Below are positions 343 through 50,071 of a stretch of 64,000 bases of DNA, in pieces (position 1 is the stretch's first letter; every line of letters starts with the position of its first letter). A program made the position numbers and the translations under genes. The notes beneath the pieces are model-generated. The model had not been told where the DNA came from. It worked only from the letters and a program-made list of their open reading frames with translations, and ran no database searches. The DNA comes from Arcuatula senhousia. Taxonomy: Eukaryota > Mollusca > Bivalvia > Mytilida > Mytilidae. The stretch lies in the NCBI GenBank assembly GCA_963971305.1, contig OZ020316.1, forward strand, positions 16,882,745-16,946,744, in the 5' to 3' direction.

Positions 343-3300
343 GTAAATATAACATACTTTTCAATGTAAATAAATGAATATGTAGATTATATGATGGTAT
401 TACCAAGGAAGTTTACATATAGCATCTTTTTGAAAATGTTGTACGAAAACGTTTTTATATAGAAGTTCAGTTATTACACTTTGAAAAGTAGTTCATTTCT
501 CAAAAAGAAAAAAAAAACCACTTGTTTAAAAAAATGCTTTTGCTTTTATAAAATATTTTGAATTTAGACATAGACGAATGCGCCTTGAACACCACTCAAT
601 GTGACCACGTATGTGTGAATGAGCATGGATCTTTCAGATGTGAATGTAATCAAGGCTATCAACTGCAGGAAGACAAGTCTTCATGTGAAGGTTTTTTATT
701 TGATAAATTATCTTAAATTCCCTTTTTTCACAGATCATGTGAGCTATTGCCATCACTTGGCGTCCGTCATCGATAACTTTTCTTTAAAAATCTACTTCTT
801 CTCTTAAACTACTAAAGGGATTGCATTGAAACTTGGCACATATCATCTATTGGATGTCATCTACTAAGAATGCAGGTGAAAAATAGTTTTTTTTTCTTGC
901 CTATAGAATGAAAACTGTTGCAGATAGAGAATACTTTTGCTTGCTTAAACTTACAGTTCATTTTACTCTTAAAAATATCCATTAGACAGTAGTTGTTTGA
1001 TGACCCCTAATAAAAAATATTTTCCCCTTATTTATTTTTTTTGGGTTTTTGCCTTGCAAATTAAACCTAGTGTAAACAAAAGTTAACACTTAAGTATGTC
1101 TCGCTCGCCTGCCCGAACTATTGGAATACATAGTTATTCAACTATTCAATTATTAATTCTCGCCTGTTGGCATAATAAAAAAATGCATTAAAAGTTTACC
1201 AAGCCCTTGAGTTCTTTAAATCAGAGGTTAATAAAAGTAAAGATCGTGTAGCAGGTGACGTTATATAATTTTTTTCTGTGGACCAAAAAGTGATTCTAGA
1301 TATAAATATCCTTGAGAAAGACAGAACACAAAAAGCCAAGTTTACAGTCATTTAGTGTAAAATGAGGTCAAGGTCAGATGACATGGTGATAAATCCAAAC
1401 ACCTTTCGCACATTTATCAAAATCATTTCAATATGTGGATCGTGTCTTTCTGGCACATATTCCATATTCTTTCGTTTTTAATATTATTTCAGAGTTTGGC
1501 TTTAGTGCCGTGTGGAGGTCGTAGAAAGCTTCCCCGTGCTTCAGTTGTATGCTCTTATATATTTTCGAGTACTGGAATATGTGTTGGAAAGACACAGTTT
1601 ACATATTTCCAAAATTTGACAACGTTTGGCTATTTCTTTAAAACTTGATACGTTTATCTGTTTGGTCACTGTTGTAATAATTTTCGGCTTCTATTTTTGT
1701 TTTATCAAATCTAATATTCTACCGGTTTTCCAAGTTTTTTTTACTCCTAGCGTGTCTGATGAAGGTTAATCCAGAAAAGTGCTTCACACGCAGTGAAATT
1801 TTGCTTTCGCACATTTATCAAAATCATTTCAATATGTGGATCGTGTCTTTCTGGCACATATTCCATATTCTTTCGTTTTTAATATTATTTCAGAGTTTGG
1901 CTTTAGTGCCGTGTGGAGGTCGTAGAAAGCTTCCCCGTGCTTCAGTTGTATGCTCTTATATATTTTCGAGTACTGGAATATGTGTTGGAAAGACACAGTT
2001 TACATATTTCCAAAATTTGACAACGTTTGGCTATTTCTTTAAAACTTGATACGTTTATCTGTTTGGTCACTGTTGTAATAATTTTCGGCTTCTATTTTTG
2101 TTTTATCAAATCTAATATTCTACCGGTTTTCCAAGTGTTTTTTACTCCTAGCGTGTCTGATGAAGGTTAATCCAGAAAAGTGCTTCACACGCAGTGAAAT
2201 TTTGCTTTCGCACATTTATCAAAATCATTTCAATATGTGGATCGTGTCTTTCTGGCACATATTCCATATTCTTTCGTTTTTAATATTATTTCAGAGTTTG
2301 GCTTTAGTGCCGTGTGGAGGTCGTAGAAAGCTTCCCCGTGCTTCAGTTGTATGCTCTTATATATTTTCGAGTACTGGAATATGTGTTGGAAAGACACAGT
2401 TTACATATTTCCAAAATTTGACAACGTTTGGCTATTTCTTTAAAACTTGATACGTTTATCTGTTTGGTCACTGTTGTAATAATTTTCGGCTTCTATTTTT
2501 GTTTTATCAAATCTAATATTCTACCGGTTTTCCAAGTGTTTTTTACTCCTAGCGTGTCTGATGAAGGTTAATCCAGAAAAGTGCTTCACACGCAGTGAAA
2601 TTTTGCTTTCGCACATTTATCAAAATCATTTCAATATGTGGATCGTGTCTTTCTGGCACATATTCCATATTCTTTCGTTTTTAATATTATTTCAGAGTTT
2701 GGCTTTAGTGCCGTGTGGAGGTCGTAGAAAGCTTCCCCGTGCTTCAGTTGTATGCTCTTATATATTTTCGAGTACTGGAATATGTGTTGGAAAGACACAG
2801 TTTACATATTTCCAAAATTTGACAACGTTTGGCTATTTCTTTAAAACTTGATACGTTTATCTGTTTGGTCACTGTTGTAATAATTTTCGGCTTCTATTTT
2901 TGTTTTATCAAATCTAATATTCTACCGGTTTTCCAAGTTTTTTTTACTCCTAGCGTGTCTGATGAAGGTTAATCCAGAAAAGTGCTTCACACGCAGTGAA
3001 ATTTTGCTTTCGCACATTTATCAAAATCATTTCAATATGTGGATCGTGTCTTTCTGGCACATATTCCATATTCTTTCGTTTTTAATATTATTTCAGAGTT
3101 TGGCTTTAGTGCCGTGTGGAGGTCGTAGAAAGCTTCCCCGTGCTTCAGTTGTATGCTCTTATATATTTTCGAGTACTGGAATATGTGTTGGAAAGACACA
3201 GTTTACATATTTCCAAAATTTGACAACGTTTGGCTATTTCTTTAAAACTTGATACGTTTATCTGTTTGGTCACTGTTGTAATAATTTTCGGCTTCTATTT

Positions 3301-6300
3301 TTGTTTTATCAAATCTAATATTCTACCGGTTTTCCAAGTTTTTTTTACTCCTAGCGTGTCTGATGAAGGTTAATCCAGAAAAGTGCTTCACACGCAGTGA
3401 AATTTTGCTTTCGCACATTTATCAAAATCATTTCAATATGTGGATCGTGTCTTTCTGGCACATATTCCATATTCTTTCGTTTTTAATATTATTTCAGAGT
3501 TTGGCTTTAGTGCCGTGTGGAGGTCGTAGAAAGCTTCCCCGTGCTTCAGTTGTATGCTCTTATATATTTTCGATTACTGGAATATGTGTTGGAAAGACAC
3601 AGTTTACATATTTCCAAAATTTGACAACGTTTGGCTATTTCTTTAAAACTTGATACGTTTATCTGTTTGGTCACTGTTGTAATAATTTTCGGCTTCTATT
3701 TTTGTTTTATCAAATCTAATATTCTACCGGTTTTCCAAGTTTTTTTTACTCCTAGCGTGTCTGATGAAGGTTAATCCAGAAAAGTGCTTCACACGCAGTG
3801 AAATTTTGCTTTCGCACATTTATCAAAATCATTTCAATATGTGGATCGTGTCTTTCTGGCACATATTCCATATTCTTTCGTTTTTAACCTTAATGTAATC
3901 ATCGAAGTAATATTGTGTATATTACTTCCATGATCTAATCCATCAATATCCAAAATGTCACATGCCTAGCTATTACATTTTTCAAGCAATTAATTTTCCA
4001 CAATACTCCTAAATCACAGATAACAGCATGAAAAAGACCTTAGTTCACAAAGTCATTGAAGTATGAAAATGGGGTGAAGGTTACACGTAATTGTGACAGT
4101 TGCGTAGGCATTAACCCCCAACTGTCTGTATTTCACAACTCAGATGCCTAGCTATAATACATTTCAAGTGATTAGTTTTCCACAATGGTCTAACAAAGGA
4201 GTTTACGGCATGAAAAAAACCCTTTAGTTCACAAAGTTACTAAAGCGTTAAATTGGGGTCAAGGTTTGAGCAAACGTACCCCAACTGTCTGCATTTCAAA
4301 TATCAGATACCTAGCTATTATACTTTTCAAGAAATTCATTTTTCACAAAAGTCTTCCAAAGAAGTTTTTGGAATGAAAAAAGAACTTAGTTCACAGAGTC
4401 ACTGGAGTGTGAAAATGGGATCAAGGTCACAAGGCATGGTAACAAATGCGTAGACCATGACCTCAACTGTCTGTATGCCCAATATCAGAGCTATTATACT
4501 CTTTAAGCAATTCATTGTCCACGAAAGTCTTACAAAAACATTTTCGGTCTGAAAAAAAGATCTAAGTTCATAGCGTCACTGGAGCGTGAAATTGAGGTCA
4601 AGGACACACAACATAGCAATTCATTGTCCACAAAAGTCTTACAGAATATTTACGCATCGCCGGAAAGTAATACCTATGACTCGCCTTCCGCGATTAATGA
4701 TAAAATGATATGAGATCAAAAATATGATGATCCTTTATTGGTTTTTTCCTCAGATGCACACAATGTTTTTCATTCCATCAGTCAGGTCAGAGATTCAGGC
4801 TCCTGGGAGCCTCTTGTTTTCGTACCGTCTAAATTGTACATTGCATGTAATTTTCAACTTAAATTATTATACCCTTGCTAAAAAAATATAGTGCCATTCC
4901 GTCTTTCCGGAATTAATTGTGTTACACCTCTGCAATTTTTACAAACTCCTCACAGTTCCAATTCCCGTATGTAACGGTCCGTACACTAATCACTGCACCA
5001 GGCTTTCAGGGTTTCTTTTCAATAACCTCTTTTTGACCCCTAATCTCTAATTGAAAACCAAGAAAAGTACTCACATATACTTTTATGCATTACGCAACCA
5101 TATTGTTTATAATATAGCCTAAACACTTATACGTAACTTCACTTTAAAATAGTGCGTAATCATTTAAAACCGGTTTTAAACAAATTGAATTAATTTTTCT
5201 AAGAAATAATCGTTACAGAAAATTTGATGTTTTCATGGCTAACTATAGCAATGTTTTGAGAATGATAAAAAAGAAATCATTCAGAAACTTGATGGATTTC
5301 ATTCAAGACTGTAGCAGTGGGATAATCCTGGTTTTTTTGTCGGAAACGATAAACCTACTGCGAAGGAGTTTGCGTTTTCATACATATGTTCAAAAAATAT
5401 TTGGGACTTAAAATGTAAATGTGCACCTCTTATTTTAAAATTTTACCTGATTGATTTTCAGGATCTCCCATAGCTAATCAGGGACTTTGCATTCCATCCC
5501 TTCTCTTATCTGCAACGCCCTTTATACCCCCCAAAGAACTTTCATGAAATATTCACACAATGTTTGTGAGGGTTACTTTATTGTTAAAGTAAACTGCAGG
5601 GCATTCTTTTTAAAAGTAATTTTTTATCGACAAGTTAAGAGCTGATGCGGTCCTATTCTACACCAGGCTTAAAACGTATAAAAACAATTAATATTTAGAT
5701 ATCAATATGTTTACAGTATGTTTACACAAATGATTCAGTTCAGTACCTTTTATCTATCTCTTTTCCTCACCTCTTTTCGTGCAATAATAGAAAATCATTG
5801 TTAAAGATACTACAAGAATACTTTATTTTCTTCAGAATCATTACTATTTTTGTAATTTTACTTAGACGGTCACGTCTTAAGGTAATTCTGCAGTACGTTT
5901 GTATAAAGATCGCGACTTTAGTAATTATCAATGGAGTATCAGTATAGAAAGTAAAAAGTATTTCCGAAAATAATCAACCACAACCTTGACATAAAATACA
6001 AATGACATCAATCTTACGTACATAACAGTATTGGATGTACTCAGTAGACAAGAAATCAAAGTTTTGTAACCACAAAACAAATAAAACACTTATATTGTTG
6101 ACATTTTGAATAAAAAATACAAAACAGTTCGATAACCTTTCAAAAAGTAATACACAAACTCTAGCTTAGTAAATAAAAGTATGACAAAATTACGTGCTGG
6201 GGTGATTGATCTTAAATACCAAGAAGAAAAGTCAAACAATTAAGCAAAGTAAGACTAGAAAAAGAAAAATGATTGCAGAATCTCTGACATTGAACATTGA

Positions 6301-9300
6301 TTAAAACATAGTGGATGTATGGTGTTCCGGCAACCAGACATTCCTTTTTCGTTGCAATTTAAGGATTCGACAGTTACTGTAACACAAAGCATAATACGGT
6401 TGCTTAAGCTAATAAGGTAGTGAGGTAACCATCCTTATTCAATAGGCAAACGCTTATCATGTTTCATCTCATAAGAATTAATTGCAGTTGGAGTTGACAA
6501 ATGTATGTGTTATGGTCTCATGTTCATTTACCCTGTATCGTTGTCCACCAAAAGTTAAGCACCACCACATTTTAAAATGACATCCTCTTTTTATATTTCA
6601 ATGAAATATGCTGGTCTTTTGCACACAAGAACCTTTGCATATTAGAACAATTTTGCATCCAAAAATTGAAATTAAAGTAACATTTTAAAAATATGGGTAC
6701 ATCGTATTGTGTTAGTTTATCTGACCCTGAATTCAAGTTTCGGGGAGCAATAGAACAAGCAGAAAATTAAGGCAAAGCTTGCTTTCAAAGTATCTTACGC
6801 ATGACACTTCTTTAAAATGGTGTGTTGCCAATCACATCAACCGACGAATATGAGTTTTTAAAGGGTTTTGCAGTTTAAGGGGACTGCTTAAAATGCCTGC
6901 TTTTTCCTGACTTTCTGACCATGTTTATTTCCAAATACTACTTTCGCCTTAAAACCGCATGGAAATTAAAATGTGATTTTTTATGAAGATTTAGTTGGGT
7001 TTGTTTGAAAAGGGTTAGCAGAAAAATGAGGCAAAAAAATCTTTTTTCATGATTTTTCAGAAAATGTTATTTTTTTCGTAAAATTTAAAAATGAACTAAA
7101 ACTGTTTCCAGACAGACATTTCTGTCATTAAATGTGTGTGATCATGACACATATGACGTTACATTTTTGCGTGGAGAAGGAAAAACGATATGGTGAACAT
7201 TTTTAAGAATTTTAACGACATTTTCTTTCAAAATTGTTTCGACAGAAAATGAGATTTCCGAAAAGTGGCCTGTCGGACAGAGAACAAACACTATTCACAA
7301 AAAAATGATACGAGTTTCTGCAAAAATTAAGTTTCCATACCTATTCAATTTCCTAAATATACGATATTGAGATGTGGAATAAGTGAACGCGACACAACAA
7401 ACATAAACAAACAGCAATTCAAAAAATCACAACGGAAAACAGCAAGCAGTCTTCAACATGACCATAGGTCACTGCTTACCGTCTTGCATTGGCCCAAGAC
7501 TTATAATACAATACAAAAGTATCAAAACCAATCCCTAAATCATCAACGAAAGACTCAATTCTTGACATAAAACAGTTAACATAGAAAACAAGGACAAACA
7601 AAGGCTTTGGCAAAGTTTCCTGGCTTAGGACAGGCACATATAAAATGTGGCGGGGTTAAACTAGTTTTTTGGATCCAACCTTCCCCCTATTGATAAGCTT
7701 GCACAAAGCTACTTATAAAACACACTGTAAAACTCAATCGACAAAAGTTCAATTCAACAAGAGAGAACCTAAGACAAAATACTGTACGAAAACAACAAGA
7801 CAAGGAGGAACTCTCTTGAGAACACTCGAAGTTACTGACAACTAGCTAAGAAACATTTATCGATTGATGTAAAAGAATCAACTAAAGACAACACTTTCTG
7901 TCAGTTTTCGGCATAAAACTTTACAAGAAAAGAGTTCTTCCCCTTTTTAGCTCACCTGACCCGAAGGTGAGCTATTGCTATCACTTTGCGTCCGTCGTCC
8001 GTCGTCTGTCGTCCGTCGTCCGTTAGCTTTTTTTCAAACATCTTCTTCTCTGAAACTGCTTGGCCAATTGCAGCCAAACTTGATATGGTTGTTCCTTAGG
8101 GTATTGTGCAAAAAGTTTGCGTTGGAATTTATGATACGTCAAAAAACATGGCCGCTGTTACTAAAAATAGAACAGGGGGGTCAAATACAGTTTTTTGCAA
8201 ATAACTCAAAAACGGTCACAGATATCAAAATTCTGGCTAAGTAAAAGTGATCAGCACCTCAAGATCTACCTGCCCAGAAATTCTCAAAAAGATCCAACAA
8301 TGGATGTAGGAGTTATTGCCCTTTTTCTTGATTTTTTCAAAATTTTGCACTTATTTAGCCCTATATCTTGAAAACTATACAAGATATTTTAAAAGTTCAA
8401 ATTCCATATGATTAAGCACATTAAGATCTACATTTTATGTAACTAGGTCAAAGCTGAAGAACCATTTCTTTTAGGATTTATGGCCCTTAAAGCGTCAAAA
8501 TTTACCATTTTCCATTGTTTAATAGCTTATAAGCTACAACTCTATTGTCAGATTTTTTATTCCTTAAAAAAACATGGCCACCATGGCTAAATAGAACAGC
8601 ATGTTAAGATTTACCTGTCCTGAAATTACAAAAAAGATCTGACTGTTGATGTGAGAGTTATTGTTCTTTTTCCTTATTTTCGCCAAATTTGCACTTATTA
8701 AGCCCAATATCTTAAAAACTAACCAAGATATTTCAGAAATTTAAATCGCATATGGTTAAGCACAATAATATCTACAAATATATGTATCTGTGTAGTTCAG
8801 GTGAGCGATTCAGGCTCTTGGGAGCCTCTTGTTAAGCACTTGTGTAAGGTTTGTTTAATTGAAAATGTATGAACATTATTTTTCACTGTAAGACACCAAG
8901 CCAACTGAAAGAAGACACAATTTGAAGTGAACTAAATTTAATTTTTTCGTCAAAGTTTTTCTTAGAAACATTTTAGACATTAAATCATGTTCTGTTTGAA
9001 GAGTCTTTTTTCTTTATATTTCTATCGCTGGCACATACCCTGTGCAACATTACATTGAACTGTGTGTTATCAGGATACATCTTTCAAACCCATCTTGAAG
9101 TTAAATTGCGTATGCATTTTTAATCTTAAATTGTATTAATAAAAATATATAGGGAGGTGCTTAACTTATAATGGCGGACTGTATAATATCAAGTTTTCAT
9201 TTCGCTAACAATAGCAAAGCATTGCTTCGTATTTATTACAATATAAATCATGTGATGATATTACGGGGTGCTTATTTGAAGACCAATCAAATACTTTTAG

Positions 9301-12300
9301 TAAATCGGTTTCATTTAATATAATTCATTCTGCAGAAATTTAACAAAAATATCAAATTTTCGTACAACCATTTTATTTCATTCATCATTATACTTCGATA
9401 CTAAAAAAAATCCTTTTACAAAGTAATAATTTTATTTTTTCACTTAAAATCTCAATGACTGTAAACACCCCAATACTTGCAGATATTAATGAGTGCCAAG
9501 GAACCTCTAGATGTAACCAGCTATGCCACAACACCAATGGGTCTTATTACTGTAGCTGTAGTCCTGGATACTTCCTGAGCAATGACAACTACACATGCGA
9601 AGGTACATAAAACTAAATCTCTCATATTACCCAGTGCAGTGAATAGACAATGGAAAGTATTTGTATTGACCCTTTTACCTAATACATTTTAGATAAAATA
9701 AACTGAAACCGTAACTTATAGAAATGACGAAAAATTATTTTGCTGAAGTACACATTCTGAATAAAATGCTAAAAGCATAATTAACGTTGTTCATCGAAAG
9801 TGGAAAAAAAGATTAGAGAGTTCCAAAAAACTTCTTTCACATTTGTTTAAATTTGAAATTGACACACAAGGAAGGCTTTGTACAAAGCTTTATGACAAAC
9901 GTGATGACTTCAACTTTCCAATAGTTAACTTTCCCTTTCTGTGTAGCAACATTCCGTCCGCTCCAGCATATGGAGTTTACGTATCACAATTGATTCGTTA
10001 TTCCAGAGCATGTGGGGAGTACAACGACTTCCTTGATAGAGCTACACGGCTGACAAGCAAATTGTTAACACAGGGGTACGTTGCTCCCAGGTTGTTGTCA
10101 TCACTCAAGAAATTTTACGGACGACATCATGTGCTTGTTTACAAATACGGGATTTCTATCTGTCAGATGAGCACAGATGTTGGTTTGACATAGAGTTTTG
10201 TAATGTCATCCTTTCCGGATTTGACTAACACTTAATCGATTTTTGGCAACGTGACGGGTGTGCTATAGCAAGCAGGAACTGCTTACTCTTCCCGAGCACC
10301 TGAGTTCACTCTCGTTTCGACTTGAGTTCACGTTGCTGATTGCGGTTTTGTTGTTATGTGTGTGTGTTTTATGTTGTTATGTGGTTTGTTTTGTTGTGAT
10401 GAGTTTTTGTCTGCCGGTTTTGTATTTGTCTTTACGGTTTTATGATACTGATTACCCCTTTGGTACACCTTTGCTTCTTTCGTACAACGCAAAACGTTGA
10501 AGCTTTTTTTTATAAATTAAAGTGCCTTGTTAATGCAACAATGATATTGTATATCTATTACATTTGTACTAGTTGTATCATTACAAGAACTGCTCTGTTC
10601 ATGACAGCTCTCATTCTTAACAATTATTGTAGAAAATTTGTTAATCTTAAACAGTATTATTGTACAAATTTTCTTCTATGGTTACACAGATTTAACTTTG
10701 TTGCTTTTAGACATAGATGACTGTATAGGAGTAAAATGTGAGAATGATGGGCAATGTTTAGACTTTCCTGGAAGTTATCGGTGCCAGTGCACTGCAGGAT
10801 ATGAGGGAAGAAATTGTCAAACAGGTAAGTCTATATGACTTAAACTGGCGGTTTCATATCGCTGTATTCACCGATGAATTTCACGATTTCTTTCACTTAC
10901 AAATTTTGCACAAACTAGCCAATCTTTCATTAATATTAATTAGTTTTGAAACTATACATGTAAATAATGTAATAGATGAATACATGTAGTTTTCTGAAGA
11001 GATCGTTTTATTCCACTCAAATTACACCAATATTATAATAGAAAACGTTTGATCATGTTAACTATTTGCACAAAGATCAACCCATTGATGATACCTGTGT
11101 ATTTTACCATTTAAGATGTGAATGAATGTTTGTACCTGAACGGTGGATGTGAAGATGTTTGTATCAACAACCAAGGATCTTTCCAATGCCAATGCACAAA
11201 TAATACCCTAGATGATGATGGAATGTCGTGTAAAGGTCGGTGAATATAATCATTTTTTAAATAAAAGCAAATCACACCAAAAAGGTCAAAAAGACGGTTC
11301 TCTAACATCATTTTAGCTTGTTAAGCTAATTGTTAAGCTAAGTTGATTGCAGTTTATTTCTAACCGTCAAAGAGACCCAGAAATCAAATTTAACAAATTT
11401 AAAGGACTAGAGCCACGAACCCCCATATTTGGCCCTGTTAATAATCAAATATCAAAATTGGTTTGTGTTAAACCAAAGTTTGTGTACGTATAGCTGGATG
11501 TTTGTGTTAAAATAGAAAAGATTTGATAATGGTCTATAAATGAATTTTCAAGTACCCTAGCCCTTCAAAAATAGTCTAAATCAGAGATTTTTCACTTTTT
11601 GGCCAAAATGACTTGTTTTTCAGTCACAATTTTGTGATTTTCCATTTGGCGCCACCCCTCGCCCATCGAATTTTTTATTGAAATACGAAGAAAATAATGT
11701 ATTTATTAAATTTAAGCAAAAATATTTATGGGCGAGGGGTGTCGCCCATGTCATTTTCACTTAAAACCAGGTAAAAATTGTGAAATTTAGCTGAAAGTGG
11801 CATATTCTCAATTTAAGCGTCACTTTATGACGTCATTACAACGTCACAAGTACAGAAAACTTTAAAATTTACTTTTTATGTAACAATAAAGGTAATAACA
11901 AAACTACCGAACTTGAATGATCAATCTCATAGTCCAGAGAAAATGACAAAAACGAATCAGTCATTCCGGAGAATTGGTGGATCGCAATGGTCCTGACTTG
12001 GTACAGGCCTTTCAAACGAAATGGTGGGTTAACCCAGGTTTTATGGCGCCAAACCTCCCTCTTCCATTGCTATCTTAGGATCCGGTAATGACCATAGAAC
12101 ACAAAATAGTTGTGAGACACAATAGCGATATTGAGGTGATCATCTCAGTACAGCAGACCAGTCAAACACTAATTAAAACAATTAACTATCATATCTTTTA
12201 ACTCAATTTTGAACTTTTCTACTGATGGCTGATAACGAAGAAAGAATTTTTTAGTGATCCTATGAGACGTATTTTCTTATAGCCCTGCTCCAAAAGTCGG

Positions 12301-15300
12301 TCACGAAGAAATCGGTGTCTGATAAAAAAATCTGTGAAATGTGTGCAAGCTCTGGCATATCGAATAAGTTGTGAAATATAAACACCGTATGCAGGAAAAG
12401 TAGGTATATTGCTCTGTAGATTAGGAAAATTAATAATTTGAAAATTAAAATCGTCTCGTTTATCGTAAATTTTTGTACTGAGATGACCACCTGGGTCAAA
12501 TTCGGGGTGCAAATCCAAGAAAGACGTGAAGCATTTGATTCGGTGGTCTCTTTAATCTCCAATTCTGGAGGATATATTGAATGAATCCATCTACCAAATG
12601 AAGTGTTATTGACAGAAAGGACATCATCAATATATCTGAATGTAAGATTAAATGACCTTGCCTCTTTCATCTTCTTGTTCTTTACGAGTCCCTGAAGAAA
12701 TTCAGTCTCGTAAGAGTATAAAAACAAATCGGCGAGGAGAGGAGCACAGTTTGTGCCCATTGGAATGCCGATTTGTTGTTGAAAAATCTCTCCTCCGAAG
12801 GTGACAAATATGTTGTCAATGAGGAAATCAAGCATACTGCAAACTTGTTCCAGTAAATAACAAATTTTATCTTTGAAAGATGCTTTGGAAAAGAATGTAG
12901 AGTTATAACCAAAAACAACATAATTCCTAGAGTTTGAAAAGGCTTTTTCGAAAAGTTTTTTCAGGCGACATTTTAGTTTTTCGTGTGGCAAGGTAGTGTA
13001 TAAAGTTGAAAAATCGAACGTTTTCAAAGAGTGAACCTCAGAAAATGATCTAGATTTAAAATGATCTAACAAATATTTTGAATTCTTCAAAATCCACATA
13101 TGGTTAATTCAACTACGATTATAAATAGTGTCGCAGTATGCTTGATGACCTTCTTTGACAGCAGACAAGATTTAAGTTAAATGAACGGACAGCTCTGTAG
13201 TTGAAGATGATGAAGATCCAGCTATATACCTTTCTTTGTACGGATTTTTGTGAATTTTAGGTATCCAGTACAAATATGGTAACTCTTTATGTTCCTCTTT
13301 CATTGGAATATTGAAAGAGGACATAAAAGAGGTATAGTTGGCTATGATTTCATCTTTGTTAAATGTAGTCCGTTTGTATGTAGCACTAGCGGAAGTATTA
13401 CCATCAATGCCTAGTTCTTTTATTAGACAATTGTAATAATGTGCTTTACATACAAAAACTATATTATTGGAAGCCTTGTCTGCTGGTGTGACAACATACC
13501 TGTCATGTAAGGGAGAGAGACAATTGAGAGCTTCACGATCTCTAAATACAGAAGAAGGCCGTGGGTTCACACATTTGCGAAGTTTGTCTATTCGGCTTCG
13601 TACAAGAGATCGGATAGTCCTTACCCAGTCCGACAGTGATTCAAGCTCTGGTTCTTGGTCCTTTCATTCAAGTAATCATTCTAGACTACTTGGCCACAAA
13701 AATCTTATCTAACAAATGAATTTGAAAAATGGCCCGATTTAGGGCAAATATGAGGGTTCGTGGCTTTAGTCCTTTGTCTTAATGCTGTCCGTTAAGGTTA
13801 TTTTTTAAAAGCATGTCAATACTGTAAAAAGTAAGAAGATAATAATTGAACGTTGTGTTTTATTTGCAACATGCAAATAATGGATTTCATATATTCTACA
13901 GGAAATGACAATCAGCCAAATGTATTCCAAAAGAGAAAAATAGCAAGACGACGTCTTCCACGAGGGTGTGCCTACATTACCCTGACCTCTTGTAGCAGTG
14001 TAGGGGAGAGAGTAAATATCCTTTTGTCATCGACAGATTCGTGGTACAAACTAAACACAAACAGTAGCATTGTCTTTACATACGGTATTGTCTTTGCCGA
14101 GATCGGTGACTTTTATGTTCCTGTAGCTATAAGTGGATTGACAGCTTTCTCTTCGTCTAGTAGCTTCGATATAGATACAGGTACTCTAAGACACAGGACC
14201 GAGGACGGAACTGCTCTTACAGATATGCATACAGATAAGTGTTTGTTTTTCAAAACTACGTCAAAAGACATTCACGATTTTTTATCGTCCGGGTCTTTTC
14301 TTGCTACATTATTGGAAAGATTTAATGTCAAACTACCTTCCTGGCTTGAGCTCACTAAAGACGGAAGAGGAGTGATAGCCGTTAACGATTTAAGAACTGA
14401 TTTAGTATTTGGAAGTCAAATTGATAACCTCCCGGAATGTGCAGGAGCATCAGTATTTGATCAACACTTATATAACGTTTTTCGATTTGGAGCTGATATA
14501 GCTTTAAATGTCTATGGAAATCGAGTTCAGATTCCTGCGCCTCTAAAAGGGAACAAGTTTTGTCTAGTAATTGACATTTGTCAAAGTAAAGGCGGGACAG
14601 TTTTTATGATTCTACCACCGGAATCACGCGACCTGCTAGACAGAACTGAATACTTTAAATCATATACTGCAGACGGGCTTCGCTTCAGACCAAGAGGGAT
14701 AGGATTGTCTTTGACGAAAGATATTAATGTACATTATAGGACACAGTCTATACAGCTTTGGAATGGGGATGAAAAGTATCAATATAAGTATGTATTAAAG
14801 CGATGAATCTTTTATTGACTTGTTTGGTTCTGCATTGTTAGATATTTTAGATTGATATTTCTAATTTTGTTGTAACCTTTTTTTCCGATTTTTGTTCCTT
14901 TTAAGGATATGCATTTTTTCGCAATTTTGCATAAAGGCGACCAAATTTTAAACTATAATGCTATATTTGAATATAAATTCATAAAACTTGTTAAAATATT
15001 ATGCCCTCATCTCACCGTTTTTCCAAATTATCAATATAAGTATGCATTAAAGCAATAAATCTGTTATTGCATTGTTTTGTTCTGCATTGTTATATATTTT
15101 AGATTGATATTTATAATTTTGTTGTAACTATTTACTGATTTTGTTCCTTTTAAGAATATGCACTTTTTCGCAATTTTGCATAAAGGCGACAAAATTTTGA
15201 ACTATAATGCTATCGTTAGATTTATCCACTTTTTATATTTGAATATTAATTGTGTAAAACTTGTTAAAATATTATGCTCTTATCGCACTTTTTCCAAATT

Positions 15301-29242: not shown

Positions 29243-29905
29243 AAGGTAATAACAAAACTACCGAACTTGAATGATCAATCTCATATTCCAGAGAAAATGA
29301 CAAAAAACGAATCGGTCATACCGGAGAATTGGTGGATCGGAATTACAAAGTACAAAAAATAAACGAAGCATATTGTAACACTGTAAAACTTGATTGGATT
29401 TTTTAAAGTTTAAATTAAAAAGGGTTGATAAAATGAACATGAATAAATATCATCAAAAAAATTTACTGAACTTGGGGGATCAATCTCAAAAGTCTGAAAG
29501 AAAAGACAAAACAAGGCAGACTTACCGGAAATATTGAAGACCGCAATGGTCCTGACTTGGTACAGGCATTTCAAAAGTAATGGTGGGTTAAACCAAGTTT
29601 TATGGCGCCAAACCTCCCTCTTCCATTGCGATCTTAGGATCCGGTAATGACCATAGAACACATCATAGTTGTTAGACACAATAGGGATATTGAGGTGATC
29701 ATCTCAGTACAGCAGACCAGTCAAACACTAATTAAAACAATTAACCATCATATCTTTTAACTCAATTTTGACTTTTCTACTAGTGGCTGATAACGAAGAT
29801 GATTTTTTAGGGATCGTATGAGACGTATTTTCTTATAGCCCTGCTCCAAAAGTCGGTCACGAAGAAATCGGTGTCTGATAAAAAAATCTGTAAAATGTGT
29901 GCACT
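29243..29905 (-). pseudogene. Penelope-like 3' fragment
   Basis: Repeats the arrangement of 11.88-12.37 kb: terminal block, then the last codons of the C-terminal domain (29.78-29.9 kb), on the minus strand. Similarity stops near 29905. There a 66-bp direct duplication containing 'ctcttaaactcttagtttaa' begins (to about 30020). Confidence 0.6.
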
Positions 29906-38650: not shown

Positions 38651-39414
38651 TCATGCTCTTTATAATCCAATTATTTATATCTCGCGCAGATGAAAGCGGA
38701 TGTGGAGATGTTCCCCCTCGTATATCAATGGGGCGACTGTCTTGATCGGTCAGATACGTCTGCAAGCGATCGTTGGTCCTCAGAGTCACGGTCAGGTAGA
38801 CTAGATTCTTTGGGGTCTTAATGATCTTCATGCCCGGATCGACTCCGGGTTAGAAGCTATAGATGATTGACTGCTGGGTGCCGTCCACATACCTTCCATC
38901 GATTGCTATTCACCAGGATGCTATTGATGCTGATAATATTGACGATATGCTCACCCTCCGTGTAGCCGTTCCTGGCTCTTTCGTATACTTCTTGCGCTCG
39001 AAATCTAGCACGTTGCTTATGCTATTGGGAACGTCAAATCCACTTGATATTTTCTGGCGAGGGTGAGGGTGGCCCTCAAAGTGGCGCGATTGGCATCGAG
39101 GTAGATCTTTGATTTGTGGCTTTGAGCTGCAGTTGCTGTAAGATCTCATTGTTGATATCGTCGACGCCGTATGACCCAGTGCTCAGCTCGACGGGAAACC
39201 ACTTAGCTCCCCTCATCGGGAGAGAAGCGGAAGGAATTATTCCCCGCATGGATATTGGGGATTGAGTAGTACGTCTCCAGATTCACGAGGGCCATCTGGT
39301 AGAGGGTGGGTTGAAGCGGGTCAAGATCTTACTATCGTTCCCGGAGACGATGAAGGAGAACCCATGTATTGGTTCGGTATTGGTGACGATTTGCCGCAGA
39401 AGTGAAGCGTCCAT
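38640..39414 (-). pseudogene. Penton-like minor capsid protein, broken
   Basis: A start ATG at 39414 follows AGATAAAT. Blocks read LRQIVTNTEPIHGFSF, then (other frame) MALVNLETYYSIPNIHAGNN, then NRATLRATLTL and YQVDLTFPI near 39.0-39.1 kb, and a C-terminal NLVYLTVTLR / YLTDQDSRPIDIRGG at 38.7-38.8 kb. The TDQD...D-RG ending is a signature of the minor capsid (penton-like) family in these elements. Several stops and frameshifts are present. The unit boundary at 38972 cuts this gene, so the two downstream copies lack the C-terminal third. Confidence 0.6.
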
Positions 39415-39419
39415 ATTTA

Positions 39420-40254
39420 TCTAAGCCACCTCAGAAGACGACGCTCATCTTCTGACCATCGGATTCAAACTGGAGGATTCGATCGGAGATGACCAAGGGG
39501 AAGGTTTGGTTATTGGCGGGAACGTTGCACACGCATTATGCTCGGATCTGGATATCCATGTTCGACTCTTTCAACCGCTCGGACTGGTTGCTGACGTCGA
39601 TGACAAAAATAGAGTTCGATGACGAAAAATAGAGATCAATGAAATCGGAGGGGTTGATGCCACCATTGCTCAGCTGACTTTCCATGCTGTAGAATTTCTT
39701 GCAAATTTGGCGGCCTCCTTATAGACCCTGGCGAGCTTGCACTGGATGAAGAAGTCGGCATTAAAATCTACGGCGGGATAGCGCTCGGCATTGAGGGTAA
39801 CGTGGATATTTTGTAATCGTTAGTGGTCGAAGACGGCGGCATTATGGAACTGGTCATTCCCCATCCATGATCCATCGCGGTTTCTCGCAACTGCTTTTAG
39901 CAGTCAAACACCAATGGAATTGCAAGGTCTGGGGCACGGCAATGGAGTCGCACTGTCTACAGTGGAAGCCATAAATCGATCTTGGTCTTGCTCTGGATGG
40001 TTCCATGAAGCTGCAGCTTCTTTTCGTTGGAAGGAATGACGTGGGGTACGACCGACGTCGTACGCAATACCATCATTCTTCTGAAGTCGCCCTTCGATTA
40101 AGAGATAGCTCTTAGCGGGGTGGAGGAAGAGGCGTATCTCCGCACCTGCGTTATTCAGCTGGGCACCGGCTTGAGGTTCGTATTCGTGAACCTGATACTC
40201 CTGAAGACTTTCATCAAAGGTCAGTCATTCGGTGAGAGAAAGCATATCAGCCAT
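39420..40254 (-). pseudogene. Major capsid protein-like gene, copy A, broken
   Basis: A start ATG at 40254 lies just after a TATAAATAAAATG context shared with the preceding gene's stop. Blocks in shifting frames include QLNNAGAEIRLFLHP, AKSYLLIEGRLQKND (40.1-40.2 kb), YPAVDFNADFFIQ, and a C-terminal VPANNQTFPLVISDRI-like stretch (39.5 kb). The N-terminal AG-E-R/SYL-EGRL pattern is typical of the Polinton/adintovirus major capsid family. At about 280 codons it is shorter than an intact capsid gene (usually over 450), so internal sequence has been lost as well as frame. Confidence 0.6.
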
Positions 40255-40275
40255 TATACATTTTATTTATAGCGC
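40255..40275 (-). promoter_or_regulatory. TATAAATAAAATG gene-junction motif
   Basis: On the minus strand, TATAAATAA contains the stop codon of the 85-aa gene and lies immediately before the capsid start. The same motif recurs before the DUF8207-like start (41511-41526). Related AT-rich forms occur before the penton-like, ATPase and core-protein starts. It is a candidate late promoter of the module. Confidence 0.5.
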
Positions 40276-40520
40276 CGGACGAAGTCGTGGATGGTGGCAA
40301 TGCCCCCGCCCGAGATAAGATTATTGAGGCGAGCTTGCTGTCTTGGGGTCCACACATACTTGGTAGGGGTTATTGGGGGAAGATTTTTCTTGCTAGTCAG
40401 TCGATGGAATACGTGGTCCACCGCCTTGCTCGCACCTTTCTCTACACCTTTCAGGGCTGCATTGGAAGCGACGCTCACAGCCTTACTTCCCAACGTCTTT
40501 GCGGCAGAAGAGATCAGCAC
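40263..40520 (-). CDS. 85-aa small virion-type protein, copy A
   Basis: An intact short frame on the minus strand. The N-terminal half is an Ala/Ser/Val amphipathic helix (SSAAKTLGSKAVSVASNAAL). The C-terminal half is basic and ends with a Gly-Gly-Gly turn and RRYK. Size, composition and place between the capsid and DUF8207-like genes suggest a minor virion or membrane-active peptide. Function is inferred from context only. Its stop codon (TATAAATAA) overlaps the putative promoter/start of the capsid gene. It is preserved unchanged in all three copies. Confidence 0.5.
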   Translation of the reverse strand: MLISSAAKTLGSKAVSVASNAALKGVEKGASKAVDHVFHRLTSKKNLPPITPTKYVWTPRQQARLNNLISGGGIATIHDFVRRYK

Positions 40521-41513
40521 TCGTCCTGCAAGACTGGCGATGGTATCGAATAGTCCACGCCCGCCGACGGCATACCTCCGCCGATTGATTTACTACTGAA
40601 GGCATCGTAAATTTATTTCGATGCAGCTGCTCGTACTCGTTCCTGCTAATGTGACTGGACCTCCTCATGGCGTCGAAAATGGCCACGATTTCGTTGCGCA
40701 CCCCATTATATCCAGCTTGGTAGGCGGCAGAGCAAAGATCGAGACGATCCAGCAGCTGGTTGAAGCATTTGGGTAGGAAAATGGTCTGCACCCCGCTCCC
40801 ATACTTATCTTGCCTATAGATGTGGGAGACGATTTCTTTCCACTTGTGGCTCTTGTTTCCTTGACACATGGCAGCGGACGCACTCATGATGTCGCCATAA
40901 TTTTCATTTTTCATCTACGTCATACGATCTAGGATCGGGACGTTTCTTGACCATGGGCTCCCATAAGCCGGGGTACCCTTATAGCACTGACCGTCGTCGA
41001 AGATATCGTCCCCATCGAAAGTGACTGGCAGATTTCCTATTATGATGGCATCGTTCTCCAGCCGCAATCCAAAGGTATGATCAGCTTTGGGAGTCATACT
41101 GAGCTGAAGATAGTGGGTTGCTCGCGGACCGAGGTTAGTCTTCAATATTGCTTGCTCGATGGGCAGTGGGTCGTCATCCTCAGCGGCAGGAGGTAGAATA
41201 GCAGGCAATGGGGCGGGTAGAGGAAGGGGGATATCTTCGATCTTTTTAGTGACTTTGGAGGTAGTCTCCTTTTGCGTCTCGAGCAAGGGCTTGAATATCT
41301 AGGAGAGATATCTTCGATCTTTTAAGTGATCTGGGAGGCTGTCTTCTTTTGCGTCTCGACCACGGACTTGAATATCTTGGAGAGATCGCGACTGAGTCCA
41401 ATATTATCTTGACGACGCTGTATATCGCTGGCCTAGATGCTACGCTTCGTCTCCTGCAAGTCCCTGGCTAGCGCCTCACGCTGTTTGGGATCGGTAATCT
41501 TGATGAACGTCAT
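40483..41513 (-). pseudogene. DUF8207-like gene, copy A, frameshifted
   Basis: A start at 41513 (TATAAATAAAATG) gives a short charged coiled coil (KITDPKQREALARDLQE) with in-frame stops. It continues through a Pro-rich linker to TFGLRLENDAIIIGNLPVT and GDDIFDDGQCYKGTP (about 41.0 kb). After a frame change come NYGDIMSASAAM and KSHKWKEIV/YGSG (40.75-40.9 kb). The FG-R-E...IGN-PV...GDDI...YKGTP signature matches a protein family widespread in Polinton-type elements, which I believe is DUF8207. It is known only as part of the structural module. An internal direct repeat of about 80 bp (41233-41388) carries the linker twice. Confidence 0.6.
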
Positions 41514-41532
41514 TTTATTTATAGCACCACCA

Positions 41533-41660
41533 ACGCATCATAGCGTTTGACGCATTGCCTCCAAACGCCCCATAGTGTTCGACGCATCGCCTCCCATCGC
41601 CTAATAGCGTTCGACGCCTCGCCTCCCAACGCCTCATAGCGTTCGTCCCATCGCTTCCAT
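41533..41660 (-). repeat. 32-bp minisatellite (4 units) inside viral-module frame, copy A
   Basis: CATAGCGTTCGACGC-type units recur with 32-bp spacing (41541, 41573, 41605, 41637). Because 32 is not a multiple of three, each added unit shifts frame. Copy B has the same array at 46865-46984. Confidence 0.6.
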
Positions 41661-42003
41661 CACCTTGCCAGTCAGCTTTTCGCACCCCCATCGTGGATGC
41701 AAAAAGCTTATTTCCCATCGCCCGGGCCCTAGCGTCTGAATATCGCCTGCCAATGAGGAGAAAGTGCATATGGACCGCCCATGCAGCATTCGGAGGAGCA
41801 AAAAGATTTGCGGCAGATCCTCTTAGCAACTTTAAGGTGAACGAACTCCCATCTCATCCGGACTTTTACGCCCGACCGGAGGGTTGCTTATTTGGAAATG
41901 CGAATTCTCTCCTCGTGGGTCCGATGCAAAGCCTTGCTGCAGGCAATCTTAACACTGATAGCATATGCCTCGTGCTTCGAATGCCTGCTGCATTTATCAC
42001 TGC

Positions 42004-42748
42004 TAAGGATTGCAACGATTAATCGGTTAACCGGTTATTCGGTCGGAAATATCGTAACCGGTTACGAATTTCAGTAATCGATTAATCGTTAAAAATTAAA
42101 AAAATAAACTTTTTTTCATTGTACATTTCAAACTCAATTAGAATAATTCAATTAGTAAACAGTAACACAAAGAAAATTGATTGAAATGGATAATTTGCGA
42201 TGATTACTCCGTCAAGACACAATTGTTTATACAAACTGTCACTAATAGTAACAAAACCATTTCAGATTTGAAGCGTTGCTAATTGCAGTTTAATTGAACC
42301 TTTTATGGTTTGGTAAAACTGTTTGTTTCTCATTATTTACTTCGTTTTTTTATCCTGTTTACTTCGTTTTTATTTCTTCGTCTTGTCCTTCTATGTCTGC
42401 TGTATTTCTCATTGCCTTTTTGGGCTTACAAAATATATTTATCCCATTTGTACTCCTTAATTGTGTGTTGAAAGTAACATTTTTGAAACGCATCGCATTC
42501 AGTGGTTTTATCCTATATTCAAACTTAAAGCCGATTCCAAGCTTATAAATGCGAATTGTTCATTTTTTTTTGCTTGCATTAACGGGAGGGCTAAGACAGT
42601 CTATTAACCATAAGTTTTTTCCGCAATTTATTTTGACTGGACGCCTAGACTTCTTTTATAGTTACACGATTCACACGGTCAACCGGTTAATCGGTCGGAA
42701 GATCTGATGATTAACCGGTTAGTGTATTTGAACAGTTTGTCATCCCTA
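42004..42748. mobile_element. Non-autonomous hAT-like element, copy A
   Basis: 745 bp bounded by an exact 8-bp target duplication ATCACTGC (41996-42003 and 42749-42756). The ends, TAAGGATTGCAAC and the inverted TAGGGATGACAAA, are imperfect inverted repeats. Subterminal AACCGGTT-rich inverted motifs lie on both sides. The interior is AT-rich and non-coding, unlike the surrounding GC-rich viral sequence. An 8-bp duplication with TAGGG-type ends points to hAT. Confidence 0.8.
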
Positions 42749-43088
42749 ATCACTGCCCGATGTGGAGGGTTGCGTGCATTGATCGCCGTGGACGGTGATG
42801 ATGCTACACTGTGGTCTGGGTGGGGGTCGGAGTTTTTGGTGGCAATGGGACTTATAGCTCCTTCCTTTGAAATCCTGATCAGCGATGCGGCGATAGTACC
42901 TTTCAGCCCCACATTTACTACCCCGGGATATCGTAAATAACGCTCTCTCCCACTGGTGCTTGCATTCAGGGGGTGGTCGTGGGGATCGGGGGCATTCTCA
43001 CGATCCAAGTCCCGTTGATTCTCAAGGAAACATTCCTGCAAGTGATCCATTCTTTATGTTAGACTCGATTGATTTCGTCTAATTTGCA

Positions 43089-43795
43089 TCAGTATTTCCC
43101 ATCCGTAGTGGGCTCGTAAGATCGACGGTCAGGAATCCATGAGGTTGGACCCAGCAGCGCTTGCACAGGACATCGAATTGGTCCGGGGTGAGATCGCCGC
43201 AATGGTCCCGGCGAATATGGTCGAGATTCTTTGCATGCTGCTCGAAGAGGCAGATGAAGTTGGCAATTGATCAATTGCCGCGGGAGCTTGAAGTAATTTT
43301 GGCAGAGGTAGAAGCAGTCCACGTTATTATGCACGTAGTAGTCTTCACACTTGCTCTGCTTGCTCAGCATCGAAGACCATGATTTTTTTGCGGGTGGGAT
43401 CGAGCTTTCGAGGATCGGGCACTTCACTCGCCTGCTCGAAAATTGAAGGTGGCTTGGTCGGTGGCTTCATCATCTGCACCACGTCGACCAAAGAGTTGGG
43501 ATAGCGATCCTTGATGGAGAGAAGGTCGCGGATATCATCTTTCGAAAACACTTTTCCAATTTCCAAGCGCCTGTCGCAGTAGCTGTTAGATAGGGTGGTG
43601 GAGCGATTTTCCGAAGACGTAGAGGCGATTGTAGTCGAGCCATCCATCGCACAGGAGAAAATTATTCAGCAGCATCGTCTTACCACAGTCCGACTTTCCG
43701 ATGATCAGACCTCGGATGGATCGCTGCGGGAGGAGAAAGTGGTTCTGCCGACGGCTCGTGTCGGGCTCATCGTAGGTAAGGTCTTCAACGTTCAT
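43089..43795 (-). pseudogene. Packaging ATPase (FtsK/A32 type), copy A, frameshifted
   Basis: The start at 43795 follows a TATAT-rich bidirectional spacer. Block 1: RGLIIGKSDCGKT (Walker A, about 43.69 kb) and GWLDYNRLYVFGKSLH. Block 2, in another frame: DIRDLLSIKDRYP and KKIMVFD (Walker B, about 43.37 kb). Block 3, in a third frame: CEDYYVHNNVDCFYLCQ and NYFKLPRQ (about 43.3 kb). The motif order is that of the DNA-packaging ATPase of Polintons, adintoviruses and other PRD1/adenovirus-lineage viruses, which pumps genome into the capsid. At least two or three frame breaks make it inactive. Confidence 0.8.
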
Positions 43796-43812
43796 TTATC
43801 TATATAAAATGG
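43786..43812. promoter_or_regulatory. Bidirectional TATA-like spacer between ATPase and phospholipase genes, copy A
   Basis: The two start codons face away from each other across only about 13 bp of CATTTATCTATATAAAATGG. Minus strand: TATATAGATAAATG. Plus strand: TATATAAAATG. A shared divergent promoter is inferred. The same layout is at 49114-49140. Confidence 0.5.
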
Positions 43813-44165
43813 AAATGTACTGCTTTATGTGTAAGAAGAAGACGAAGACGAATAATCGTTACGTGATCACCAGCGAGGACGGACGGCGGCGACGGAAGGT
43901 GGGAACCTGCTCCGAGTGCAGTGCGCGAAAATCTCAGTTCATCAAGATGGAGAGGAGAACTGGACTCGTGAATCGGCTGATAAATCGACCGCCCTTCGAA
44001 ATGCATCTGCCGGGGCATAATTTAACCGGTCCGGGGACCAGACTCTGCCAGCGACTGAATGCCGACGGCACCCCTAAACCTTGGTCGAGACTTACCAATC
44101 GAGTCGATGAGTCCGCCTGTCGCCACGATCTCCGCTATGCCAACCACAAGGATACGACTGCATGA
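43809..44165 (+). CDS. Zinc-ribbon (DUF5679-like) plus phospholipase A2-like protein, copy A
   Basis: 118 codons. The N-terminus has two CxxC pairs (CFMC ... CSEC), a small zinc ribbon of DUF5679 type. The C-terminal half has GPGT (calcium loop) and VDESACRHDLRY, the His-Asp catalytic pattern of the parvovirus VP1-type phospholipase A2, also found in adintovirus-like elements. In such viruses this activity acts on endosomal membranes. The frame meets TGA at 44163-44165, but the same frame then runs open to the unit junction (block LDALPNLTARERFE), so the original protein was longer and a nonsense mutation shortened it. This is the best-preserved gene of the module. Confidence 0.7.
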   Translation: MEMYCFMCKKKTKTNNRYVITSEDGRRRRKVGTCSECSARKSQFIKMERRTGLVNRLINRPPFEMHLPGHNLTGPGTRLCQRLNADGTPKPWSRLTNRVDESACRHDLRYANHKDTTA

Positions 44166-44295
44166 AATTCGATCTGTGATAAGACGATGCTAGCCTCGCT
44201 CGATGCCCTCCCCAATCTCACCGCACGCGAACGCTTCGAGCGTGGCATCGTCAGACCCGTCATTGACACCAAAGCACTATTTGGGATGGGCGTGG

Positions 44296-44738
44296 CTGGC
44301 TCTTTCGTATACTTCTTGCGCTCGAAATCTAGCACGTTGCTTATGCTATTGGGAACGTCAAATCCACTTATTATTTTCTGGCGAGGGTGAGGGTGGCCCT
44401 CAAAGTGGCGCGATTGGCATCGAGGTAGATCTTTGATTTGTGGCTTTGAGCTGCAGTTGCTGTAAGATCTCATTGTTGATATCGTCGACGCCGTATGACC
44501 CAGTGCTCAGCTCGACGGGAAACCACTTAGCTCCCCTCATCGGGAGAGAAGCGGAAGGAATTATTCCCCGCATGGATATTGGGGATTGAGTAGTACGTCT
44601 CCAGATTCACGAGGGCCATCTGGTAGAGGGTGGGTTGAAGCGGGTCAAGATCTTACTATCGTTCCCGGAGACGATGAAGGAGAACCCATGTATTGGTTCG
44701 GTATTGGTGACGATTTGCCGCAGAAGTGAAGCGTCCAT
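44296..44738 (-). pseudogene. Penton-like gene, copy B, truncated by the repeat junction
   Basis: The same sequence as 38972-39414 with a few substitutions. The C-terminal part is missing because the tandem junction at 44296 joins it to the end of the phospholipase-gene region. Confidence 0.6.
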
Positions 44739-44743
44739 ATTTA

Positions 44744-45578
44744 TCTAAGCCACCTCAGAAGACGACGCTCATCTTCTGACCATCGGATTCAAACTGGAGG
44801 ATGCGATCGGAGATGACCAAGGGGAAGGTTTGGTTATTGGCGGGAACGTTGCACACGCATTATGCTCGGATCTGGATATCCATGTTCGACTCTTTCAACC
44901 GCTCGGACTGGTTGCTGACGTCGATGACAAAAATAGAGTTCGATGACGAAAAATAGAGATCAATGAAATCGGAGGGGTTGATGCCACCATTGCTCAGCAG
45001 ACTTTCCATGCTGTAGAATTTCTTGCAAATTTGGCGGCCTCCTTATAGACCCTGGCGAGCTTGCACTGGATGAAGAAGTCGGCATTAAAATCTACGGCGG
45101 GATAGCGCTCGGCATTGAGGGTAACGTGGATATTTTGTAATCGTTAGTGGTCGAAGACGGCGGCATTATGGAACTGGTCATTCCCCATCCATGATCCATC
45201 GCGGTTTCTCGCAACTGCTTTTAGCAGTCAAACACCAATGGAATTGCAAGGTCTGGGGCACGGCAATGGAGTCGCACTGTCTACAGTGGAAGCCATAAAT
45301 CGATCTTGGTCTTGCTCTGGATGGTTCCATGAAGCTGCAGCTTCTTTTCGTTGGAAGGAATGACGTGGGGTACGACCGACGTCGTACGCAATACCATCAT
45401 TCTTCTGAAGTCGCCCTTCGATTAAGAGATAGCTCTCAGCGGGGTGGAGGAAGAGGCGTATCTCCGCACCTGCGTTATTCAGCTGGGCACCGGCTTGAGG
45501 TTCGTATTCGTGAACCTGATACTCCTGAAGACTTTCATCAAAGGTCAGTCATTCGGTGAGAGAAAGCATATCAGCCAT
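44744..45578 (-). pseudogene. Major capsid protein-like gene, copy B, broken
   Basis: Nearly identical to copy A with the same breaks, so the inactivation precedes the duplication. Confidence 0.6.
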
Positions 45579-45586
45579 TATACATT

Positions 45587-45844
45587 TTATTTATAGCGCC
45601 GGACGAAGTCGTGGATGGTGGCAATGCCCCCGCCCGAGATAAGATTATTGAGGCGAGCTTGCTGTCTTGGGGTCCACACATACTTGGTAGGGGTTATTGG
45701 GGGAAGATTTTTCTTGCTAGTCAGTCGATGGAATACGTGGTCCACCGCCTTGCTCGCACCTTTCTCTACACCTTTCAGGGCTGCATTGGAAGCGACGCTC
45801 ACAGCCTTACTTCCCAACGTCTTTGCGGCAGAAGAGATCAGCAC
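45587..45844 (-). CDS. 85-aa small virion-type protein, copy B
   Basis: Amino-acid identical to the 40263 copy. Confidence 0.5.
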   Translation of the reverse strand: MLISSAAKTLGSKAVSVASNAALKGVEKGASKAVDHVFHRLTSKKNLPPITPTKYVWTPRQQARLNNLISGGGIATIHDFVRRYK

Positions 45845-46837
45845 TCGTCCTGCAAGACTGGCGATGGTATCGAATAGTCCACGCCCGCCGACGGCATACC
45901 TCCGCCGATTGATTTACTACTGAAGGCATCGTAAATTTATTTCGATGCAGCTGCTCGTACTCGTTCCTGCTAATGTGACTGGACCTCCTCATGGCGTCGA
46001 AAATGGCCACGATTTCGTTGCGCACCCCATTATATCCAGCTTGGTAGGCGGCAGAGCAAAGATCGAGACGATCCAGCAGCTGGTTGAAGCATTTGGGTAG
46101 GAAAATGGTCTGCACCCCGCTCCCATACTTATCTTGCCTATAGATGTGGGAAACGATTTCTTTCCACTTGTGGCTCTTGTTTCCTTGACACATGGCAGCG
46201 GACGCACTCATGATGTCGCCATAATTTTCATTTTTCATCTACGTCATACGATCTAGGATCGGGACGTTTCTTGACCATGGGCTCCCATAAGCCGGGGTAC
46301 CCTTATAGCACTGACCGTCGTCGAAGATATCGTCCCCATCGAAAGTGACTGGCAGATTTCCTATTATGATGGCATCGTTCTCCAGCCGCAATCCAAAGGT
46401 ATGATCAGCTTTGGGAGTCATACTGAGCTGAAGATAGTGGGTTGCTCGCGGACCGAGGTTAGTCTTCAATATTGCTTGCTCGATGGGCAGTGGGTCGTCA
46501 TCCTCAGCGGCAGGAGGTAGAATAGCAGGCAATGGGGCGGGTAGAGGAAGGGGGATATCTTCGATCTTTTTAGTGACTTTGGAGGTAGTCTCCTTTTGCG
46601 TCTCGAGCAAGGGCTTGAATATCTAGGAGAGATATCTTCGATCTTTTAAGTGATCTGGGAGGCTGTCTTCTTTTGCGTCTCGACCACGGACTTGAATATC
46701 TTGGAGAGATCGCGACTGAGTCCAATATTATCTTGACGACGCTGTATATCGCTGGCCTAGATGCTACGCTTCGTCTCCTGCAAGTCCCTGGCTAGCGCCT
46801 CACGCTGTTTGGGATCGGTAATCTTGATGAACGTCAT
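45807..46837 (-). pseudogene. DUF8207-like gene, copy B, frameshifted
   Basis: The same blocks and the same breaks as copy A, with one or two substitutions. Confidence 0.6.
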
Positions 46838-46838
46838 T

Positions 46839-48378: not shown

Positions 48379-48416
48379 TCTTTATGTTAGACTCGATTGA
48401 TTTCGTCTAATTTGCA

Positions 48417-49123: not shown

Positions 49124-49136
49124 TTATCTATATAAA

Positions 49137-49493: not shown

Positions 49494-49623
49494 AATTCGA
49501 TCTGTGATAAGACGATGCTAGCCTCGCTCGATGCCCTCCCCAATCTCACCGCACGCGAACGCTTCGAGCGTGGCATCGTCAGACCCGTCATTGACACCAA
49601 AGCACTATTTGGGATGGGCGTGG

Positions 49624-50066: not shown

Positions 50067-50071
50067 ATTTA

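Follow-up and report, generated by a model that had tools for sequence, protein, structure and literature searches.

A 401-bp tandem array with type I hammerhead motifs, a likely animal retrozyme-type repeat, within an EGF-domain gene intron of Arcuatula senhousia

A stretch of 64,000 nucleotides from the bivalve Arcuatula senhousia (Mytilidae; assembly GCA_963971305.1, contig OZ020316.1, positions 16,882,745 to 16,946,744 of the forward strand; hereafter the window) contains a 401-bp tandem array at 1403..3887 on the plus strand, in which six copies of a type I hammerhead-like motif recur. From the layout and the predicted structure of its units, we consider it likely that the array is a repeat of the animal retrozyme type without long terminal repeats (non-LTR). 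According to passages of PMC7229834 (Cervera and de la Pena 2020), the non-LTR retrozymes of animals consist of repeats of about 150–450 bp in tandem, which carry type I hammerheads, have a GC content below 50%, and lack an LTR, a primer-binding site (PBS), and a polypurine tract (PPT). The array has tandem units of 401 bp (6.2 copies), a GC content of 34.7%, and a hammerhead in each unit. The earlier note on this DNA had proposed a retrozyme, and unit size, GC content, tandem layout, type I core, palindromic loop III, plus-strand fold, and intronic insertion all speak for that proposal, whereas the covariance-model score speaks against it. Literature searches on retrozymes or hammerheads in molluscs, bivalves, or animals showed no title or abstract opening about this repeat; most likely, the kind of element (an animal retrozyme) is known and the array is a new one within it.

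The array, as delimited by Tandem Repeats Finder and unit comparison, measures 2,485 bp with a period of 401 bp and 99% matches. A left partial unit of 383 nt is followed by five full units and a right partial unit of 97 nt; the array starts at unit position 19 and stops at unit position 97. It had been described before as hammerhead-bounded units over 1404..3887, of which the unit period stands, but the array begins at 1403 and its ends lie off the cleavage sites. Counted from one predicted cleavage site to the next, a complete unit such as 1786..2186 (+) is the predicted release product, 401 nt long and with 34.7% GC compared to 40.3% in the window. Among the five units counted in this way, only unit positions 352 and 185 vary: at position 352, two neighbouring units have G, and the other three as well as the left partial unit have T; at position 185, one of the five differs. 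The units are more than 99% identical to one another, and the array is young. Patterns for box A and box B (RNA polymerase III), the octamer, and AATAAA are absent from both strands of the unit, and a 122-aa stop-to-stop frame running across the units was not taken as a gene. No further copy of the hammerhead motif or of the unit was found elsewhere in the window on either strand.

The 30-nt core of the motif occurs six times on the plus strand (starts at 1756, 2157, 2558, 2959, 3360, and 3761) and not once on the minus strand, and all five spacings are 401 bp, in agreement with the six exact copies reported previously. With their outer helices, the predicted hammerheads span 1739..1798, 2140..2199, 2541..2600, 2942..3001, 3343..3402, and 3744..3803 (all +), with predicted cleavage at 1785/1786, 2186/2187, 2587/2588, 2988/2989, 3389/3390, and 3790/3791, respectively. 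In each unit, CTGATGA is followed by an 11-nt stem-loop II, GAAA, an 8-nt stem-loop III whose first base is the final A of GAAA, and C17, and a 6-bp stem I encloses all of these. In the first copy, for example, the parts are the outer stem I, a CCTA bulge, the 6-bp stem I, CTGATGA, a stem II of GG/CC on an A·A base, GAAA, a 2-bp stem III with a GTGC loop, and TTC. Measured against the type I consensus taken from passages of PMC3088659 (Perreault 2011), the core (C3 U4 G5 A6 N7 G8 A9, G12 A13 A14, A15.1–U16.1, and H17) is complete in all six copies. Stem I is open. Its six Watson–Crick pairs beside the core bear out the perfect 6-bp stem I of the earlier note, yet the helix continues for seven more pairs (UUUUACU/AGUGAAA) past a 4-nt CCUA bulge on the 5′ side. 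Among 20000 random pairs of 20-mers drawn from the unit, a 7-pair extension arose in 6.2% within the allowed gaps and in 1.5% without a gap on the 3′ side, as seen here; helix I extensions with internal loops have been published for newt and salamander hammerheads. The claimed 3-bp stem III had to be corrected: the pairs next to the core are A15.1–U16.1 and A15.2–U16.2, and the monomer has these 2 bp (AA/UU) with a GUGC tetraloop, because a third pair would leave a 2-nt loop.

A type I descriptor matched exactly the six array sites and no others in the 64 kb on both strands; in 100 shuffled versions of the window with the dinucleotide content preserved, it had no match. A looser descriptor without stem II and stem III pairing returned the same six sites only. 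The descriptors were composed with the motif already known, and this is why they tolerate one mismatch where stem II begins; this circumstance, together with the lack of a hammerhead match in Rfam, favours a chance likeness in an ordinary satellite. To that explanation the expected number of matches is opposed. We estimated it from first-order random sequence (3.1e9 nt) that follows the dinucleotide make-up of the unit, in which the loose descriptor matched 111 times and the as-observed descriptor once, that is, 2.9e-5 and 2.6e-7 expected matches per 401-nt unit on both strands, with the outer helix and the palindromic loop III not yet counted. A chance likeness is therefore highly improbable. 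In viral contigs, the near-identical form of the motif was not found; a looser form gave eight stretches, all eight without any stem I pair, and these were discarded.

Only in the dimer can the stem III strand of 8 nt form 8 bp with its own second copy, including two G–U pairs, which confirms the self-complementarity with GU pairs that had been claimed for it. When a 540-nt stretch with two hammerheads was folded in cis under constraint, the dimer reached −124.1 kcal/mol vs. −117.5 kcal/mol for two monomers (6.6 better). Palindromic loops III and dimers are reported for repeat-associated animal hammerheads in passages of PMC3088659; in the repeat-associated type I hammerheads of Aedes and newt, as here, a palindromic stem/loop III permits a dimer. 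The hammerhead probably acts as a dimer. A comparable ribozyme is HHR_Amex2 of the axolotl (~350 bp), in which, as passages of PMC7229834 describe it, helix III likewise has two pairs and a tetraloop and helix II starts with a mismatch, and which cleaves better as a dimer. It differs from the array in that the mismatch is U·U there and A·A here, and in that it belongs to a vertebrate with ~60,000 motifs, in contrast to one locus seen here. For the mussel Mytilus galloprovincialis, the same passages report ~5000 hammerhead copies, usually in 350–390-bp repeats, and expression of circular RNA. That retrozyme resembles the array in size and in its type I hammerhead, most of the canonical loop–loop nucleotides being described as missing there; compared by description, the array differs in its 401-bp unit and in the A·A at the base of stem II.

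Folded as a 401-nt circle, the plus strand of the unit reached −91.5 kcal/mol (shuffles −72.3, sd 5.3; z −3.6), with none of 150 shuffles as low, and the minus-strand circle reached −68.5 kcal/mol (z −2.0, 100 shuffles). A long imperfect inverted repeat at 1831..2008 (+), with 35-nt arms that are 80% complementary, forms the principal hairpin of the folded unit and recurs in the other units.

If the array is a retrozyme-type repeat, adjacent hammerheads in transcripts spanning at least two units would pair with each other by way of the palindromic strands of stem III; joined in this way, they would cut after TTC and free 401-nt RNAs. These RNAs would be closed into circles, a step that the published model assigns to a host RNA ligase, and the circles could then be copied by the reverse transcriptase (RT) of another element into tandem cDNA for insertion elsewhere. 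The ribozyme activity of this array is the least certain of these steps, because stem II begins with an A·A mismatch. A narrower proposal, which we put forward tentatively and regard as rather unlikely, is that in this retrozyme lineage, with its A·A base and two-pair stem III, a single copy would be inactive and the ribozyme would work solely as a tandem dimer; array transcripts alone, here made in sense orientation from within the host-gene intron, would then yield 401-nt circles. If active, the array would extend the bench-studied animal cases by a circle-forming element whose hammerhead is unusual, and it would offer a natural test of whether 10.1–11.1 can be mispaired once two ribozymes join.

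The array lies in an intron (691..9482, +) of a gene with EGF domains. It is flanked by plus-strand exons with EGF_CA domains (Pfam), which stop at ~690 and resume at ~9483, and the intron borders read GT and AG (splice sites judged by eye; further exons between them are possible); the array is therefore intronic and in sense orientation, and the intronic location suggested previously holds. At 1734-1750 and in the other units, a pyrimidine run followed by CTAG stands upstream of the hammerhead and looks, by eye, like a fair 3′ splice site. Such bases before the hammerheads could make the array a splice decoy.

Judged from its flanks, the array interrupts an old degenerate repeat. In the left flank (1317..1402, +), 1317-1389 is 81% alike to 63645-63716, and the last 13 nt are roughly collinear in a global alignment; the local alignments on this side stop 13 nt (63.6 kb paralogue) or 8 nt (4.4 kb copy) before the array. 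To the right of the array, the similarity to the 63.6 kb paralogue continues. Since both flanks match one paralogue, an array-free related stretch exists in the window, 60 kb off. The 40 nt beyond the array (3888..3927, +) are missing from the paralogue if the flanks are joined at 3928, and their first 22 nt are target-like: 3888-3909 and 3928-3951 gave equal-score matches to one target piece, each above all 5000 random placements. Over 38 nt, a flank join at 3928 scores 61 and one at 3888 scores 51, with 42 identical letters each. The target-like sequence thus occurs twice, both times to the right of the array, and the left junction reads AC|CT. With two candidates for the right boundary, the inserted DNA comprises the array either with or without the following 40 nt, and 3888-3927 would be either an insertion tail or a local target duplication. 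Together, the array-free paralogue and the target-like 40 nt offer a handle on which machinery inserts animal retrozymes.

Several results weigh against a retrozyme-type repeat with a working hammerhead. Position 10.1/11.1, a highly conserved pair at the base of stem II, is an A·A mismatch here, followed by GG/CC. The earlier note had raised this as a caveat, and it is a serious one: the survey in PMC3088659, in the passages concerned, discarded hammerheads with 10.1–11.1 mispairs unless their activity was measurable, and gives U–U as the best tolerated mispair. The covariance-model check that had been suggested brought no hammerhead score at three settings, as the Rfam hammerhead families did not match the window at the gathering score, a 2.9-kb piece searched up to E = 5, or a 71-nt piece searched up to E = 10, in runs without a positive control on weak-stem animal hammerheads, so that the recognition of such forms by these models was not gauged. 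Two weak snoRNA matches in Rfam (13.4 and 10.9 bits) were far under their cut-offs of 40 and 43 and were rejected. Covariation cannot be asked for, because the six motifs are identical. With tertiary contacts uncounted, the local minimum-energy fold is not a hammerhead (−12.9 vs. −7.1 kcal/mol); in this competing fold, which is favoured by 5.8 kcal/mol over the hammerhead of the monomer, GAAG and CUUC pair across the core. The free minimum of the 540-nt stretch, −129.1 kcal/mol, is 5 below the dimer. The 75-nt ribozyme region is of ordinary stability (z −0.12, with 85 of 200 shuffles folding at least as well), and the paired fraction of the plus circle, 0.60, equals that of shuffles (0.586, sd 0.029). 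As for the insertion, the right boundary is ambiguous between 3888 and 3928, and the two 25-nt flanks bordering the array have a longest common word of 4 nt. With no longer shared word, no ordinary target-site duplication (TSD) is seen; TSDs of animal retrozymes are optional, and longer than 4 bp if present, according to passages of PMC7229834.

Part of this evidence would suit a descendant of a retrozyme whose hammerhead is decayed or passive, now a satellite spread by unequal exchange or by rolling-circle DNA amplification, with no cutting. The A·A at a highly conserved stem II pair, the non-hammerhead minimum-energy fold, and the lack of a visible TSD all agree with such a history, and the near-identical units with the G variant in two neighbours also fit local duplication. 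However, the remaining core bases are intact in six of six copies, the plus-strand fold is stronger than the minus-strand one, and the axolotl ribozyme, mismatched at the same place, still works, and best as a dimer (as described in passages of PMC7229834). We regard passive spread as possible but doubtful.

The sequence beyond the array bears on whether the retrozyme-type units might instead form the central tandem repeats of a non-autonomous Helentron-type element (HINE), with the hammerhead as a passenger. HINEs are common carriers of satellite-like arrays in oysters, and passages of PMC7492417 describe Cg_HINE repeats from arrays with 100–500-bp units, no TSD, and a palindrome within ~60 bp past the array. 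The locus is similar to the oyster Cg_HINE Helentrons in being a short satellite-like array with no TSD seen, and perhaps in its palindrome on the 3′ side: a 37-nt imperfect palindrome, partly target-like, lies at 3898-3934, mostly inside 3888-3927, and the better empty-site alignment keeps 3888-3927 within the insertion. On the other hand, a HINE requires a subterminal inverted repeat (subTIR), an inverted repeat, and a microsatellite in the left flank and prefers TT sites, as stated in the same passages. Here, neither a subTIR nor a microsatellite was seen in the left flank, where, in the local alignments, target sequence comes as close as 8–13 nt to the array; the left junction reads AC|CT rather than TT, and the 22 nt past the array resemble the target itself. 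Membership among Helentrons or HINEs was rejected for want of these left-flank features and the TT site, and a HINE origin is improbable.

The target-like 40 nt might represent a Penelope-like tail or a Helentron-like end. A further alternative is that the units are part of a Penelope-like element (PLE), as a pseudo-LTR (pLTR) with a minimal hammerhead, and not a separate retrozyme. PLEs, in the published passages on them, resemble the array in having type I hammerheads in a tandem context within pLTRs, some with tails of 30–40 bp, to be compared with the 40 nt at 3888-3927; RT remnants also lie 6–10 kb off in the window. The PLE hammerheads, unlike those of the array, are described as minimal, mostly without the helix III that is present here, and they sit in the pLTRs of an RT-coding element, whereas no RT reading frame lies inside or joined to the 401-bp units. 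Neither remnant of an RT matched the unit in a comparison up to E = 1, and the Pfam RVT_1 match stays under its cut-off (17.9 vs. 29.6 bits), so that their assignment to a PLE is not established. An RT open reading frame, usually with GIY-YIG, between hammerhead pLTRs was not found, so that PLE membership was rejected; we consider this origin quite improbable, and the retrozyme-type repeat remains the favoured assignment.

The broken RT-like frames of the window are located at 12219-13663 (−) and 9765-10193 (+), in introns of the host gene of the array. The RVT_1 match mentioned above is that of the 12219-13663 frame, which is unlinked to the array; the piece at 9765-10193 has a similar look and is presumably an RT remnant. 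Over the 3′ end of the 12219-13663 frame, 11885-12347 has an 89% copy at 29442-29903. Dispersed repeats that are 90–96% alike lie between exons in this gene-bearing stretch (10253-10478/16265-16490 and 8161-8516/16522-16879). Farther along the window, a satellite-like array with a 171-bp unit occupies 51767-62600 (~63 copies at 99%), and its first 514 nt gave no Rfam match at E up to 5. Beside this array ends a region of direct duplication (38972-51741) with a spacing of ~5.3 kb, in which 38972-46401 and 44296-51741 are 99.4% alike and another partial copy is present.

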